Of a stretch of 55,876 nucleotides of DNA, positions 3,263-55,876 are shown one piece after another. The stretch covers positions 1 to 55,876 of the forward strand of contig JANLFW010000010.1 of NCBI GenBank assembly GCA_024653305.1, given 5' to 3'. Below the pieces are notes generated by a model. That model did not search any database. It was not told the DNA's origin and saw only the letters and a list, made by a program, of their open reading frames with translations. Source of the DNA: Candidatus Acetothermia bacterium (GTDB lineage Bacteria > Bipolaricaulota > Bipolaricaulia > Bipolaricaulales > Bipolaricaulaceae). A program made the translations under genes and the position numbers. Every line of letters starts with the position of its first letter. Within the stretch, counting starts at the first letter, position 1.

Positions 3263-4319
3263 CCCACGTGCGTTTGTTCCTCGAGGCCGCGGAGGGGCGG
3301 AATTGCCCCTCCTCATCGTGGGGAACAAGCTGGACCTCGTATCGGAAGGGGACGTGCGCCGGGTGCAGGCGGAGCTCGGCATGGAGTTCCCCACGATGTC
3401 GCTTCTTTCGGGGACGAATGTGGCCGAGGTCACCGCGGAAGTCGAGAGGAGGTTTCCCCCGGGCTCGCGGATCGTGGTCCTTGGGATCTTCAACTCGGGC
3501 AAAACGAGCCTTATCGCCCGCCTGACCGGAAAGGAGTTGAAGATCGGGGACTTGCCGGGCACCACCCTCGAGTTCGAGGAGCATCCCTGGAACGGTCGGG
3601 TCCTGATCGACTCGGTAGGCCAAGTGATCGATGTGAACCGGCACTTCATGGTGGGCTACGATTTCACGGGTTGTCAAAGTCCAGAGGCGATGTTCGAGAA
3701 GGCCCTGCGGCTTGAGGCAGAGGGCATTCTGTCCTCTCTTGTCACGGCACGGGATGGGTTCATCACGGCGCTCCAGGGGATCTACGGCCGGGTTTCCGCC
3801 GGAGGAAAGATCGTGACCACCGGAGCGGGGGCATCGGCGTTGGTAGCGGAGGAGATCGCTGGGCAGTGCTACGAGACCGGGGTTCCGTGTCTATGCATCA
3901 CCAACAACATGGCCCAGGCGCTGCCGGTATCGTTCGCCAAGGGCACAGCCGAGGAAGAAGGCGGCCTTGCCCGGTACATCGCCGATTCCGTTGGCCCGCG
4001 TGATGTGCTCATCGGGATCCCCGCCTCCGGGGGGACGGGGTTCGTCTACGAGGCCCTCCGCTTGGCCCGGGCCAAAGGTGCCCTGACCGTCGCCATCACA
4101 GAGAACAAGGATACCCCGCTGGGAAAGAATGCCGATGTGATCATCAAGAGCAACGCCAAGCCCGAGGGGCCATCCAGCACCAGGATTCAGACCGCTCACT
4201 TGGCGATCGGACATGCGCTGGTGTGCATCCTCGCCGCCCTCCGCGGGGTGACTGCCGAAGAGTCCATCCAGTTCATGCTCCCGGAGTGCATCGCCACCAA
4301 GAAAATGGGGATCAAGTGA
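3249..4319 (+). CDS. Circularly permuted GTPase fused to a SIS (sugar isomerase/MurQ-like) domain
   Basis: A 356-residue two-domain protein. In the first 130 residues the GTPase motifs occur in permuted order: G4 NKLD (26-29), a G5-like SG (54-55), G1 GIFNSGKT (79-86), G2 TT (105-106) and G3 DSVG (121-124), as in the RsgA/YlqF group. Residues about 185-330 are a SIS domain: KIVTTGAGAS, then DVLIGIPASGGTG, an NADVIIKS strand and a GPSSTRIQTAHLAI segment resembling MurQ-type etherases and phosphosugar isomerases. SIS domains bind phosphosugars, so the protein may couple GTP hydrolysis to phosphosugar sensing or conversion. That is inference. The ATG at 3249 lacks a ribosome-binding site; the better start (3167) is separated from it by apparent frameshifts. 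Confidence 0.75.
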   Translation: MTLKSPRAFVPRGRGGAELPLLIVGNKLDLVSEGDVRRVQAELGMEFPTMSLLSGTNVAEVTAEVERRFPPGSRIVVLGIFNSGKTSLIARLTGKELKIGDLPGTTLEFEEHPWNGRVLIDSVGQVIDVNRHFMVGYDFTGCQSPEAMFEKALRLEAEGILSSLVTARDGFITALQGIYGRVSAGGKIVTTGAGASALVAEEIAGQCYETGVPCLCITNNMAQALPVSFAKGTAEEEGGLARYIADSVGPRDVLIGIPASGGTGFVYEALRLARAKGALTVAITENKDTPLGKNADVIIKSNAKPEGPSSTRIQTAHLAIGHALVCILAALRGVTAEESIQFMLPECIATKKMGIK

Positions 4320-4325
4320 GGGCCT

Positions 4326-4417
4326 GCGGCGATCGTTCCCACTGGCTCCTGTTTTAGCAACCGGTTCAGCTTGCGACCTGGGGCCATGGCAAGCTGCGAA
4401 GAAAGGGACGATCGCCG
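4326..4417. repeat. Nested inverted-repeat element in the convergent intergenic region
   Basis: The outer arms CGGCGATCGTTCCC (4327-4340) and GGGACGATCGCCG (4405-4417) pair with one bulged base. Inside them a perfect 8-bp repeat CAGCTTGC (4367-4374) and GCAAGCTG (4389-4396) forms a second hairpin. No U-tract follows on either strand. It could be a bidirectional terminator, a small palindromic mobile repeat or a structured RNA. The rest of the gap to 4569 shows nothing clear. Confidence 0.55.
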
Positions 4418-52785: not shown

Positions 52786-52867
52786 GCGAAGGTGGCGGAA
52801 CAGGCAGACGCGCTGGCCTTAGGAGCCAGTGCCGCAAGGCGTGCGGGTTCGAGTCCCGCCCTTCGCA
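52786..52867 (+). tRNA. tRNA-Leu (anticodon TAG)
   Basis: An 82-nt cloverleaf. Acceptor GCGAAGG/CCTTCGC, anticodon stem CTGGC/GCCAG with loop CTTAGGA, a short variable arm and T-loop TTCGAGT. CCA is not encoded. Confidence 0.95.
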
Positions 52868-52873
52868 CTACGC

Positions 52874-52902
52874 TTGGACGAGTGGACGGGGGCCCGTATA
52901 AT
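52874..52902 (+). promoter_or_regulatory. Internal promoter before tRNA-Gly
   Basis: TTGGAC (52874-52879), 17-nt spacer and a perfect TATAAT (52897-52902), 11 nt before the mature 5' end of tRNA-Gly. Confidence 0.65.
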
Positions 52903-52913
52903 CGGGTCGGCAA

Positions 52914-52989
52914 GCGGGAATAGCTCAGTTGGTAGAGCGCCACCTTGCCAAGGTGGAGGTCGCGGGTTCGAATCCCGTTTCCCGCTCCA
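52914..52989 (+). tRNA. tRNA-Gly (anticodon GCC)
   Basis: Acceptor GCGGGAA/TTCCCGC, anticodon loop CTTGCCA, T-loop TTCGAAT, discriminator T, CCA encoded. Confidence 0.96.
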
Positions 52990-53000
52990 AGCGAAGGTGC

Positions 53001-53086
53001 GCCGGGGTGGCGGAAGAAGGTAGACGCGGGGGACTTAAAATCCCTTGAGCCATGCGCTTGTGCGGGTTCGAGTCCCGCCCCCGGCA
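53001..53086 (+). tRNA. tRNA-Leu (anticodon TAA)
   Basis: An 86-nt class II tRNA. Acceptor GCCGGGG/CCCCGGC, anticodon loop CTTAAAA, long variable arm, T-loop TTCGAGT. CCA is not encoded. Confidence 0.95.
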
Positions 53087-53088
53087 GG

Positions 53089-53165
53089 AGCGGGGTGGAG
53101 CAATTAGGCAGCTCGCCGGGCTCATAACCCGGAGGTTGCTGGTTCGAGTCCAGCCCCCGCAACCA
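53089..53165 (+). tRNA. Initiator tRNA-fMet (anticodon CAT)
   Basis: Initiator marks are present: an unpaired 1:72 position (A1 opposite A72), three G-C pairs at the base of the anticodon stem (GGG/CCC around CTCATAA) and the GGTGGAGCA D-arm start. CCA is encoded. Confidence 0.93.
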
Positions 53166-53180
53166 GCGGGTAGGGGTCCC

Positions 53181-53202
53181 CATGAAACCGCAAGGTTTCG
53201 TG
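53181..53202 (+). other. GCAA-tetraloop hairpin between two tRNA genes
   Basis: CATGAAACC and GGTTTCGTG form a 9-bp stem (one G-T pair) closed by GCAA. No U-tract follows. It may guide processing of the tRNA precursor or be a weak terminator. Confidence 0.4.
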
Positions 53203-53216
53203 GCGTGGATATGTAT

Positions 53217-53293
53217 GGCGGTGTAGCTCAACCGGTAAGAGCGCGCGGCCCATAACCGCGAGGTTCAGGGTTCGACTCCCTGCGCCGCCACCA
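53217..53293 (+). tRNA. tRNA with anticodon CAT (elongator Met, or Ile2)
   Basis: Acceptor GGCGGTG/CGCCGCC fully paired, anticodon loop CCCATAA, T-loop TTCGACT, CCA encoded. The paired 1:72 rules out an initiator. Overall it is closer to elongator tRNA-Met; a lysidine-modified tRNA-Ile2 cannot be excluded from sequence alone. Confidence 0.9.
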
Positions 53294-53366
<73 letters not shown>

Positions 53367-53561: not shown

Positions 53562-53649
53562 GCCTGCTACACGATAAGGGCAAACCCTTCGCAAGGAGGG
53601 GACGCAAAGCCACGGGCCCCACCGGGGTAGCCGGGCTGCCGAATGAGGC
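53562..53649 (+). promoter_or_regulatory. Cyclic-di-GMP class I (GEMM-I) riboswitch 1
   Basis: Conserved core: GATAAGGGCAAACC, a hairpin CCCTTC-GCAA-GGAGGG with a GNRA loop, GACGCAAAGCC, a second hairpin GCCCC/GGGG, and GGTAGCCGGGCTGCC. The G at the guanine-recognition position (middle G of AGGG) fits c-di-GMP rather than the A-type cGAMP variant. A possible closing P1 pairs GCCT (53562-53565) with AGGC (53646-53649), which lies inside the protease coding region. The start codon ATG (53643-53645) falls between the core and this P1, so ligand binding may directly hide or expose it. Confidence 0.92.
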
Positions 53650-54695
53650 GGGTCAAAACTGGACTAGGTTGGACTTTCCTGGCCCTCGCCCTGTTTCTCC
53701 TGTGCGCCCCCCTGGACCACCCCGAGGTGGCCGGGGGGATTGGGGCGGCGGGGGCGCCGTGCCCGGAGGGAGCACGGGTCCCATGGGGGGTGGAACGCAT
53801 CCGGGCCCCCGAGGCCTGGTTGCACACCACCGGGGTGCCCGAGGTCGTGGTGGCGGTTATCGATACCGGAATCGATCGCACCGTGCCTCAGTTGGCCAAG
53901 GCGCTGTGGGTCAACCCCGGCGAGATCCCCGGCAACGGGGTCGACGACGACGGCAACGGCTACGTGGACGACGTGTACGGCTGGGACTTCCGGGATGGGG
54001 TCCCAACGCACCTCCGGCAAACCCCCATCCACTGGCATGGCACGTTTGTGGCCGGGATCATTGCGGCCCAACATGGGTTGGGGGAAGTGGCCGGGGTAGC
54101 CCCGCGGATCCGCATCATGGACGTGCGGTTTTTGGACGGCAAGGGCCTCTTCTACACCAAGGATTGGGCCCGATTGGCCGCAGCCATCGACTACGCCGTG
54201 AACAATGGGGCCCGGGTCATCAACCTCAGCCTGTATGCCAAAATCAGACCCGCGGCCGTGGTGGAGGAGGCGTTGGCCCGGGCGGCGGCGAAAGGGGTAA
54301 TCGTGGTGGGCATTGCCGGGAACGAATCCCGGGGGGAGGTGTTCTACCCGGCCAAGTATCCGTCCGTGCTGGCGGTGGCGGCCACGGATCACCGCGATGC
54401 CCTAGCGCAGTTCAGCAACTGGGGTCCAGAGGTGGCCGTGGCCGCGCCGGGCGAGGGCATTGCTTCGGTCCTGCCCGGCGGGGCGGTGGGGACGTATTCC
54501 GGGACGTCCTTCGCTGCGCCGCACGTGAGTGGGACGCTGGCCCTGATCCTATCGGCAAATCCGGGTCTCACCGCGACGGAGGCGGTGAACCTCTTGCTGC
54601 GGAGCTGTGCCGAGGCAGGGGACGGAGGCCGTGATCCCCGGTTCGGGGCGGGCCTGATCAATGCCGGCCGGGCCGTGGCGGAGACGGCAGCGTAG
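53643..54695 (+). CDS. Secreted subtilisin-like serine protease (S8 family)
   Basis: A 350-residue protein. An N-terminal signal peptide (RRVKTG then about 15 hydrophobic residues ending near AP) directs Sec export. The catalytic triad is Asp74 (VIDTGID), His132 (HGTFVAGI) and Ser289 (SGTSFAAPHVSG), with the oxyanion Asn227 (GIAGNES). An acidic insert, GVDDDGNGYVDD, near 99-110 is a typical calcium-binding loop. There is no clear propeptide domain or cell-wall anchor. The only start giving a signal peptide is the ATG embedded in the riboswitch; the sole ribosome-binding candidate is a CCGGG within the riboswitch core. It is thus likely under direct c-di-GMP control, as are many adhesion or biofilm proteases. 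Confidence 0.93.
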   Translation: MRRVKTGLGWTFLALALFLLCAPLDHPEVAGGIGAAGAPCPEGARVPWGVERIRAPEAWLHTTGVPEVVVAVIDTGIDRTVPQLAKALWVNPGEIPGNGVDDDGNGYVDDVYGWDFRDGVPTHLRQTPIHWHGTFVAGIIAAQHGLGEVAGVAPRIRIMDVRFLDGKGLFYTKDWARLAAAIDYAVNNGARVINLSLYAKIRPAAVVEEALARAAAKGVIVVGIAGNESRGEVFYPAKYPSVLAVAATDHRDALAQFSNWGPEVAVAAPGEGIASVLPGGAVGTYSGTSFAAPHVSGTLALILSANPGLTATEAVNLLLRSCAEAGDGGRDPRFGAGLINAGRAVAETAA

Positions 54696-54709
54696 CGACA
54701 GATGTCCTC

Positions 54710-54739
54710 TTGACAGGGGAACAAGGCTCGTAGTATAGT
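54710..54739 (+). promoter_or_regulatory. Promoter of the RHH-MshEN gene
   Basis: A perfect TTGACA (54710-54715), 18-nt spacer, TATAGT (54734-54739). Transcription would start near 54746 and include riboswitch 2. Confidence 0.7.
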
Positions 54740-54757
54740 GCAAACAAGTATACACAA

Positions 54758-54835
54758 GTCCTGATAAGGGCAAACCCATCGGAAGGTGGGGGCGCAAAGC
54801 CACGGGCCCCACCGGGGTAGCCGGGCTGCCAGGGC
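54758..54835 (+). promoter_or_regulatory. Cyclic-di-GMP class I (GEMM-I) riboswitch 2
   Basis: Same core as riboswitch 1, with hairpin CCCATC-GGAA-GGTGGG, GGCGCAAAGCC, the identical CACGGGCCCCACCGGGG segment and GTAGCCGGGCTGCC. P1 is GTCCT (54758-54762) with AGGGC (54831-54835). Downstream, CCGGCT (54856-54861) could pair with AGCCGG of the core and is followed by TCTTATT, which suggests an alternative terminator. Confidence 0.93.
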
Positions 54836-54888
54836 CGAAACGGGTTCTGGGGTCCGGCTTCTTATTGGGCGAGGAGGTCGAGAAGGCG

Positions 54889-55209
54889 ATGCAGGTGACG
54901 CTTTACTACAACGAGGAAGATCACTACCTGCTGGAGCTGGTGGACCGCGAGGCGCAGCAGGAGCGGAAGTCGCGGTCGGCGGTGATCATGTCCATCCTCG
55001 AGGAGCACTTCGAGCGGGGAAAGAAGATCGGGGAGATCCTGGTGGACATGGGGCGCGTATCTCCACGGGATGTTGAGCAGGCCCTGGAGTACCAGCAGGC
55101 TGACGGTGGTTCGCGACCGTTGGGCGAGATCCTGGTGGACAAGGGATTGGTGAATGAAGACGTAGTGAGGCGGGCCCTGATCGTGCAGGGCCGGCTCCGC
55201 CGAAGCTAG
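54889..55209 (+). CDS. Ribbon-helix-helix protein fused to tandem MshEN-like c-di-GMP-binding motifs
   Basis: A 106-residue protein. Residues 1-42 fit an RHH DNA-binding fold: beta strand MQVTLYYNEED, helix A, the turn RKSRS, and helix B AVIMSILEEHF. Residues 46-100 hold two copies of the pattern LGxxLxxxGxxxxxxLxxxLxxQ: 47-69 (IGEILVDMG...Q) and 78-100 (LGEILVDKG...Q), separated by 8 residues. This is the signature of the MshEN (GspE N-terminal) domain, which binds c-di-GMP. A dimeric, c-di-GMP-responsive transcription factor is therefore likely. The ATG is preferred over an upstream TTG at 54865, because GAGGAGGT lies 10 nt before it. Confidence 0.8.
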   Translation: MQVTLYYNEEDHYLLELVDREAQQERKSRSAVIMSILEEHFERGKKIGEILVDMGRVSPRDVEQALEYQQADGGSRPLGEILVDKGLVNEDVVRRALIVQGRLRRS

Positions 55210-55228: not shown

Positions 55229-55309
55229 AACGCCGATAAGGGCAAACCACCGGCGACGGTGGGGCGCAAAGCCATGGGCCTCCCTGAGGCAGCCGGGCTG
55301 CCGAAGCGT
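55229..55309 (+). promoter_or_regulatory. Cyclic-di-GMP class I (GEMM-I) riboswitch 3 with built-in anti-Shine-Dalgarno
   Basis: GATAAGGGCAAACC, hairpin CCACCG-GCGA-CGGTGG, GGGCGCAAAGCC, and CAGCCGGGCTGCCG are conserved; P1 is ACGC/GCGT. The second hairpin GCCTC-CCT-GAGGC contains GCCTCCCT (55278-55285), which is perfectly complementary to AGGGAGGC (55313-55320), the ribosome-binding site of the next gene. The riboswitch starts about 20 nt after the RHH-MshEN stop, so it may lie on the same transcript. Confidence 0.92.
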
Positions 55310-55324
55310 AGTAGGGAGGCAACC

Positions 55325-55876
55325 ATGGTGAAGTTAGGGAATGATGTAGCAAAGGCAGCGCAGAAAACGTGGTTTGGGGCCAGGGCTCTTATGGCCCTTG
55401 CCTTATTGCTAGTCAGCGGGACCACGTTCCTGGCTTCGGCAGAAGCCTGTAGCAACTACAAGGTGGAGTTCCGTGAGGCCACCTTCGATGGAACCAACAC
55501 CACATTCAACTACCGCGTATATTGTTATGACGACCCTGCGATCAGCCATTGGGTCATGGGTTTTCCTAGTCAGTGCGCGGACTGCAAGTATGTGGTTGGC
55601 GCGGGACCTTACTCAAACTGGAAATGCGGGACTGATCCCACCACTGGCGTGTACGGGGTGAAGTTCGACGTCGGCATAGATCCGGGACAGTACAAGGACT
55701 TCTGGATCAAGCTCTCTGGGTATTGGCCCACCGGGTCTGTTCAAGTTGCGGTCAAGGCAGGAACACTGCGTTGCTATTACGAAGTGCTAGGTCCTGCTTG
55801 CCCTGTAGCGTGCAACGTTACGGTGAGCGTGACCCCGACGTCGGGTGAGCTCAACTGCAGCATGTCGAGGGTCCTC
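55325..55876 (+). CDS. Secreted cysteine-rich protein, partial (runs off the window)
   Basis: 184 codons are visible with no stop. A signal peptide (basic WFGAR then LMALALLLVSGTTFLASA) is followed by a predicted cleavage near ASA or AEA at about residue 38-41. The mature part has many cysteines (for example CSNYK, YCYDDP, QCADCKY, WKCGTD, LRCYYE, CPVACN) and beta-rich, aromatic segments; the last visible part, VTVSVTPTSGELNC, resembles the start of a repeat or anchor region. I recognise no family. Codon use is less GC-rich than in the ribosomal genes. A strong AGGGAGG precedes the ATG, and riboswitch 3 controls it. Confidence 0.85.
   Translation, partial: MVKLGNDVAKAAQKTWFGARALMALALLLVSGTTFLASAEACSNYKVEFREATFDGTNTTFNYRVYCYDDPAISHWVMGFPSQCADCKYVVGAGPYSNWKCGTDPTTGVYGVKFDVGIDPGQYKDFWIKLSGYWPTGSVQVAVKAGTLRCYYEVLGPACPVACNVTVSVTPTSGELNCSMSRVL

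Follow-up and report, generated by a model that had tools for sequence, protein, structure and literature searches.

Organisation of the locus and distribution of the gene

The window, a stretch of 55,876 nucleotides (contig JANLFW010000010.1, from a Candidatus Bipolaricaulota genome of 1.59 Mb), ends in a riboswitch-rich region in which a gene for a 106-residue protein, here called RHH-MshEN, lies between two c-di-GMP-I aptamers and is followed by the start of a gene for a large secreted surface protein. The features of this region are as follows:

53570–53644, + strand: RS1, c-di-GMP-I aptamer of the upstream subtilase transcript (Rfam covariance model)
53643–54695, + strand: secreted subtilisin-like protease (PF00082, 7e-49), a neighbouring c-di-GMP riboswitch gene
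54697–54706, no strand assigned: candidate operator, an inverted repeat GACAGATGTC of the form GAC-RNNY-GTC, separated from the downstream -35 box by 3 nt
54710–54739, + strand: sigma-70-type promoter TTGACA-18-TATAGT of the probable RHH-MshEN operon (11/12 consensus positions)
54760–54834, + strand: RS2, c-di-GMP-I aptamer in the RHH-MshEN leader (RF03167, 71.6 bits, E=5e-15; G20/A47/C92 retained)
54819–54866, + strand: intrinsic terminator, hairpin 54819–54859 plus U-rich tail (dG -30.1), its 5' arm being the 3' strand of the aptamer
54889–55209, + strand: RHH-MshEN protein, 106 aa (ATG at 54889, stop codon ending at 55209)
54889–55014, + strand: predicted RHH domain, residues 1–42 (ribbon 2–7, helices 9–24 and 29–42)
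55024–55188, + strand: MshEN_N domain, residues 46–100 (four helices, two 24-residue c-di-GMP motifs)
55232–55306, + strand: RS3, second aptamer of the probable operon, c-di-GMP-I, between the RHH-MshEN and surface-protein genes (covariance model)
55277–55287, + strand: segment of RS3 that is complementary to the Shine-Dalgarno sequence of the next gene (duplex -18.5 kcal/mol)
55325–55876, + strand: start of the gene for the large secreted surface protein, which continues beyond the window, where the contig sequence enters a run of N

The RHH-MshEN gene is preceded by the Shine-Dalgarno sequence AGGAGGT (54872–54878). Because no promoter was found between this gene and the surface-protein gene, the two probably share one operon, for which transcript data are lacking. 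Most genes downstream of RHH-MshEN begin with signal-peptide-like sequences, and the large downstream genes of relatives encode Ig/Big, DUF7507 and Lamin-tail (LTD) domains. Just past position 55876 (contig 10, L073) the run of N falls inside the surface-protein gene and leaves its middle unassembled. Directly upstream of the riboswitch region, six tRNA genes are clustered (52786–53366). Within 53570–53645, the aptamer of the subtilase transcript overlaps at its 3' end with the start codon of the protease gene (ATG, 53643). This overlap was kept in the related loci L075, L077, L078, L080, L081, L083, L084 and L090, and it hints at direct occlusion, by which the protease would be OFF when the surface protein is ON.

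Matches to RHH-MshEN were found in 74 of 100 genomes of the phylum, some of which contained two to seven. Together with the nearest named homologue, a congener 96% identical (on JACIWI010000017), this distribution shows that the gene is not there by chance. No relative was found among the viral contigs and plasmids searched. The sequences were mostly MAGs; some homologues carry the labels Thermotoga, Caldisericota, Atribacteria or Neomarinimicrobiota, and on the basis of sequence similarity and synteny, without a phylogeny, these look like Bipolaricaulota MAGs under their submitters' names; only one homologue (L128, Aerophobetes, 44%) may lie outside the phylum. Tandem paralogues were seen in L033 (923–1818), G036 (contig 129) and G042 (contig 83), those of L033 and G036 being separated by a riboswitch, and some genomes of family f2 gave four to seven matches.

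Domain architecture and predicted ligand pocket

Profile searches and structural modelling indicate that the 106-residue protein joins a ribbon-helix-helix (RHH) domain at its N terminus to a complete pair of MshEN motifs, an architecture conserved across the phylum. Residues 46–99 matched NCBIfam NF053729.1 (c-di-GMP_motif, MshE-related) with 75.6 bits against a cut-off of 38, as did the corresponding region in all 46 aligned homologues, and both 24-residue repeats were present (K46-I-G48...L66..Q69 and P77-L-G79...L97..Q100), separated by a spacer of 7 rather than 5 residues. The match to Pfam RHH_1 was weak (12.7 bits, below the cut-off of 20.5), with E<=0.1 reached in 25 of the 46 homologues and a best value of 6e-4. 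A single-chain AlphaFold2 model built on the 46-sequence alignment (pLDDT 91) showed an extended N-terminal segment and helices 9–24 and 29–42, followed by four helices at 47–104, in agreement with the ribbon and two-helix fold of the RHH superfamily and with the four-helix MshEN_N fold. When compared with the PDB by Foldseek, the N-terminal part matched CopG, Arc, VapB, TacA and CdbA (CopG 1ea4, TM 0.80; Arc 1baz, TM 0.78, by target length; rmsd 1.7–1.8), and the C-terminal part matched liganded MshE and PilF with an rmsd of 0.9–1.2 over 53–59 columns. The E-values were individually not small, as expected for domains of 45 to 60 residues, and the high-probability matches all fell within the two expected folds. 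Both domains that an earlier note, made from the sequence alone, had read from the letters were recovered, the MshEN motifs by HMM, by the two repeats and by fold, and the RHH domain weakly by HMM and clearly by comparison with CopG and Arc; the outcome that would have refuted it, an HMM comparison with neither domain, did not occur.

The pocket was assessed residue by residue in 46 homologues against the ligand contacts of V. cholerae MshE, namely R9, L10, G11, L25, L29, Q32, L39, G40, L54, L58 and Q61 (PMC5013675). The equivalents of G11, L29, Q32, G40 and L58 (G48, L66, Q69, G79 and L97) were identical in 46/46 homologues, and that of Q61 (Q100) in 45/46. R9 corresponds to K46 (R in 40/46), L10 to I47, L25 to V62, L39 to L78 and L54 to V93, so all contact residues are kept in kind (R/K, L/I/V). 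R38 was the sole MshE motif residue not kept: it is P77 in the window protein, and most members have P or L there. G18/G47, the turn glycines, varied in roughly one member in four. As a test, the relaxed motif of Wang et al. was applied; it matched motif 1 in 26/46 and motif 2 in 18/46, its partial failure in many members being due to a position 11 that is not hydrophobic. Were these motifs degenerate, as in XpsE, the protein would bind no c-di-GMP and only the riboswitches would sense the messenger; such a loss could account for the missing R38 equivalent and for the incomplete relaxed-motif matches, but it is improbable in view of the invariant or nearly invariant equivalents of the hydrogen-bonding G11, Q32, G40 and Q61 and of the rmsd to liganded MshE (1.0 over 56 columns). 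c-di-GMP binding by RHH-MshEN is an inference from residues and model, with no binding data behind it.

In the ribbon, Q2, T4 and Y6 were invariant or nearly so, and positions 3 and 5 varied, mostly among hydrophobic residues. Such an alternation of conserved and hydrophobic positions is expected of an RHH strand that faces DNA. The RHH assignment, for which the sequence evidence is weak, is supported by this pattern as well as by the AlphaFold2 model and the Foldseek matches. The same pattern bears on the idea that the MshEN domain binds c-di-GMP and the RHH domain merely dimerises, so that the target of the protein would be not DNA but a partner, such as secretion or the surface protein. This would suit the normal role of MshEN domains in regulating secretion and pilus ATPases (PMC5013675) and the secreted proteins encoded by the neighbouring genes, yet we give it only a slim chance, as the near-invariant Q2, T4 and Y6 alternate like DNA-facing positions and a family-conserved repeat marks the gene's own promoter.

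A literature search restricted to open-access text for MshEN together with ribbon-helix-helix or CopG returned CdbA-related work only, and the MshEN partners named in the main text of Wang et al. (REC, HD-GYP, CheA, CheX, cyclase and kinase) do not include RHH. We found no earlier description of the architecture, in line with the earlier note, which knew of no stand-alone RHH-MshEN transcription factor, and CdbA remains its nearest relative in function.

Riboswitch aptamers and expression platforms

All three aptamers of the window exceeded the gathering score, with c-di-GMP-I-GGC (RF03167) as the best Rfam label, and all three also passed the RF01051 cut-off. At the positions equivalent to the ligand contacts G20, A47 and C92 of Vc2 (PMC4744006), G, A and C were read directly. 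The G at position 47 expected of the c-di-GMP-I-GGC variant was not found in them, an A standing there despite the best score of RF03167; that 'GGC' denotes positions 20/47/92 was inferred from the consensus of the RF03167 model. Because the contact positions are canonical, c-di-GMP is the expected ligand, and judged by these predicted contacts the aptamers are canonical c-di-GMP-I. Among 78 aptamers, A47 was matched in 77 and G20 and C92 in 66 each, the remainder mostly missed by the search pattern. RF03167 labels across the phylum may mislead, as 54760–54834 and 55232–55306 have A47 and not the G of the variant.

The synteny of gene and riboswitch was observed widely. An aptamer lay 44–69 nt before the start codon in 31 of 57 homologous loci, with one more at 224 nt, and within 105 nt after the RHH-MshEN stop codon in 27, both positions being occupied in 24. 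The aptamers in these two places, always on the coding strand, made up 61 of the 73 found at the 57 loci. Since 20 of the 57 homologues had no aptamer nearby in the available DNA (some of these loci being short), riboswitch control is common and not universal. The earlier note had placed the gene behind a c-di-GMP riboswitch; the covariance-model match at 54760–54834 bears this out, and the phylum as a whole conserves this arrangement. The paralogues at L088 and L092 retain the inverted repeat or a near copy of it in the stretch about 60–170 nt before the RHH-MshEN start, where the aptamer looks decayed (CCTGATCAAGGCCAACCCATCGCGAAGGTGGGGCC). On another contig (L072; G000, contig 9), two more c-di-GMP aptamers (3644–3718 and 4324–4398) precede small secreted proteins within a run of secreted-protein genes.

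In all 32 leaders inspected, that of the window included, the last 12–23 nt of the aptamer form the 5' arm of a hairpin (-20 to -43 kcal/mol) that is followed by a U-rich tail, and an overlapping terminator occurred in 4 of 96 shuffled-leader controls. Compensatory pair changes were found in the terminator (C-G/U-A at -5, G-C/A-U at -11 and -7, A-U/G-C at -12 and 0). As the 5' arm of the terminator is the 3' strand of the aptamer, the two are mutually exclusive, and read-through is predicted when c-di-GMP is bound; the leader thus has the anatomy of an ON switch, in which the ligand should turn transcription ON. RS3 is likely to be a translational ON switch, a weaker reading than that of the first leader: its complementary stretch could pair with the Shine-Dalgarno sequence of the surface gene (AGGGAGG, 55313–55319), and about a dozen relatives have a similar anti-Shine-Dalgarno sequence at the corresponding point of the aptamer.

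The host encodes intact GGEEF/GGDEF proteins, from which it follows that it makes c-di-GMP, as well as HD-GYP-type matches; a search of its genome gave no PilZ or EAL match, and RHH-MshEN was its sole MshEN match. Across the phylum, GGDEF domains were present in 97 and a c-di-GMP aptamer in 94 of 100 genomes.

The candidate operator and a model of regulation

The inverted repeat was present in 18 of the 31 aptamer-bearing loci, 17 of these having it 50–53 nt before the aptamer (shuffle expectation: mean 0.2, maximum 2, 200 shuffles). Its position relative to the aptamer is kept, also in a group of loci whose promoter is displaced by about one helical turn. Combined with TTGAC, the pattern occurred once in the host genome, as an exact copy at the RHH-MshEN promoter. 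In 100 genomes it was counted 19 times, and 15 of these copies lie 152–186 bp before an RHH-MshEN start; the reversed-pattern control gave none in the same 100 genomes. This near-exclusive occurrence is observed, and binding of the protein is inferred: the repeat is likely to be its autoregulatory operator, a reading from sequence for which DNA-binding data are lacking. The earlier note had proposed DNA-binding assays on three promoters; a regulon of all three is not supported, as the candidate operator was found only at the protein's own promoter and the RS1 promoters examined lacked it. Sites with two mismatches in the host genome were considered as a regulon and rejected because the reversed control gave about equal numbers. 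At L149 (2215–2290), the repeat and TTGAC immediately precede two genes for secreted proteins, with no aptamer, which may make this locus a second member of the regulon.

The repeat could instead be the site of another transcription factor, with RHH-MshEN regulating unlinked genes. Within the phylum it occurs in one family only, being absent at the homologues of other families, and one of the other four sites, in genome G019, precedes secreted-protein genes and not the RHH gene; we regard this as possible, though unlikely, given that the host's only exact copy of repeat and -35 box lies at the RHH-MshEN gene. RHH-MshEN might also be a c-di-GMP receptor with weakly specific DNA binding that organises the nucleoid rather than acting as a specific autoregulator. 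CdbA, itself a small c-di-GMP-binding RHH protein, is moderately sequence-specific (PMC7156744), and the model of RHH-MshEN matches its structures 6sbw and 6sbx. CdbA has no MshEN domain and its c-di-GMP-binding regions are also needed for DNA binding, whereas the genes for RHH-MshEN and a surface protein share a riboswitch operon whose promoter is marked by a conserved repeat, so we judge a nucleoid-organising role improbable.

We favour, as probable, the view that RHH-MshEN is a transcription factor that senses c-di-GMP and autoregulates an operon for a surface protein, and that c-di-GMP gates this operon at the promoter, the terminator and probably the ribosome-binding site; that the protein binds ligand and DNA, and with which sign it regulates, is inferred. 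As a one-component regulator, it would form an intertwined dimer through its RHH domain (dimerisation being inferred from the fold class), which would bind the GAC-RNNY-GTC repeat adjoining the -35 box of its own promoter, and binding of c-di-GMP by the MshEN domain would change its affinity for DNA. In the autoregulated operon, ordered promoter, aptamer/terminator, RHH-MshEN, second aptamer and large secreted surface protein, the ligand-bound first aptamer would hold the strand that otherwise forms the terminator, turning transcription ON, and the second would probably free the ribosome-binding site of the surface gene, so that one messenger may gate the operon at three levels, those of promoter, terminator and translation. 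The effect of the liganded protein, activation or repression, is itself inferred: c-di-GMP might release an apo-repressor, which would fit both CdbA and an RNA that works in the ON direction, or it might act by activation, which would suit a repeat adjacent to the -35 box and kept in position relative to the aptamer. That the proteins form an undescribed family of c-di-GMP-responsive transcription factors, in which autoregulation through GAC-RNNY-GTC is combined with antitermination and translational riboswitches in a triple gating conserved across the phylum, we hold to be an evenly balanced proposition. With RHH-MshEN, the few known c-di-GMP-responsive transcription factors would gain a further domain architecture; if the model is true, RNA and protein receptors for one second messenger act on a single transcript, a setting in which one can test directly why cells stack receptors. 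RHH-MshEN also offers an entry into the c-di-GMP physiology of Bipolaricaulota, a poorly studied phylum.

We know of no RHH-MshEN protein in the CD2831/PPEP-1 system of C. difficile. That system likewise places a surface protein (the adhesin CD2831) and a secreted protease (PPEP-1) under c-di-GMP riboswitches (PMC6447587), but the protein families differ, the protease of the window being a subtilase. With the MshEN_N domains of the MshE, PilB and PilF ATPases (NF053729; PDB 5htl, 8pdk), RHH-MshEN shares two 24-residue motifs, the four-helix fold and the invariant Gly/Leu/Gln pocket; it differs in having an RHH partner instead of the ATPase, a spacer of 7 and not 5 residues, and a motif-2 Arg that is mostly lost. 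CdbA and CdbB of Myxococcus xanthus (PDB 6sbw, 6sbx) are also small RHH proteins implicated in DNA and c-di-GMP binding, and in CdbA the two exclude each other (PMC7156744). In contrast to RHH-MshEN, CdbA is an essential nucleoid-associated protein without an MshEN domain and without mention of riboswitch control in the text consulted, and the criterion of its family, c-di-GMP bound by the RHH domain itself with no other domain, is not met by RHH-MshEN with its separate MshEN domain. Repressors of the CopG/Arc/MetJ type share the N-terminal ribbon and two helices, and RHH-MshEN likewise has a candidate short palindromic operator at its own promoter, to which it adds a C-terminal MshEN-type sensor of a second messenger. 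Finally, the leader has in common with known c-di-GMP-I (GEMM-I) riboswitches (RF01051/RF03167) the covariance match, the G20/A47/C92 equivalents and the terminator platform, and is set apart from them by a controlled gene that encodes a predicted c-di-GMP-binding transcription factor and by a second aptamer directly behind that gene.
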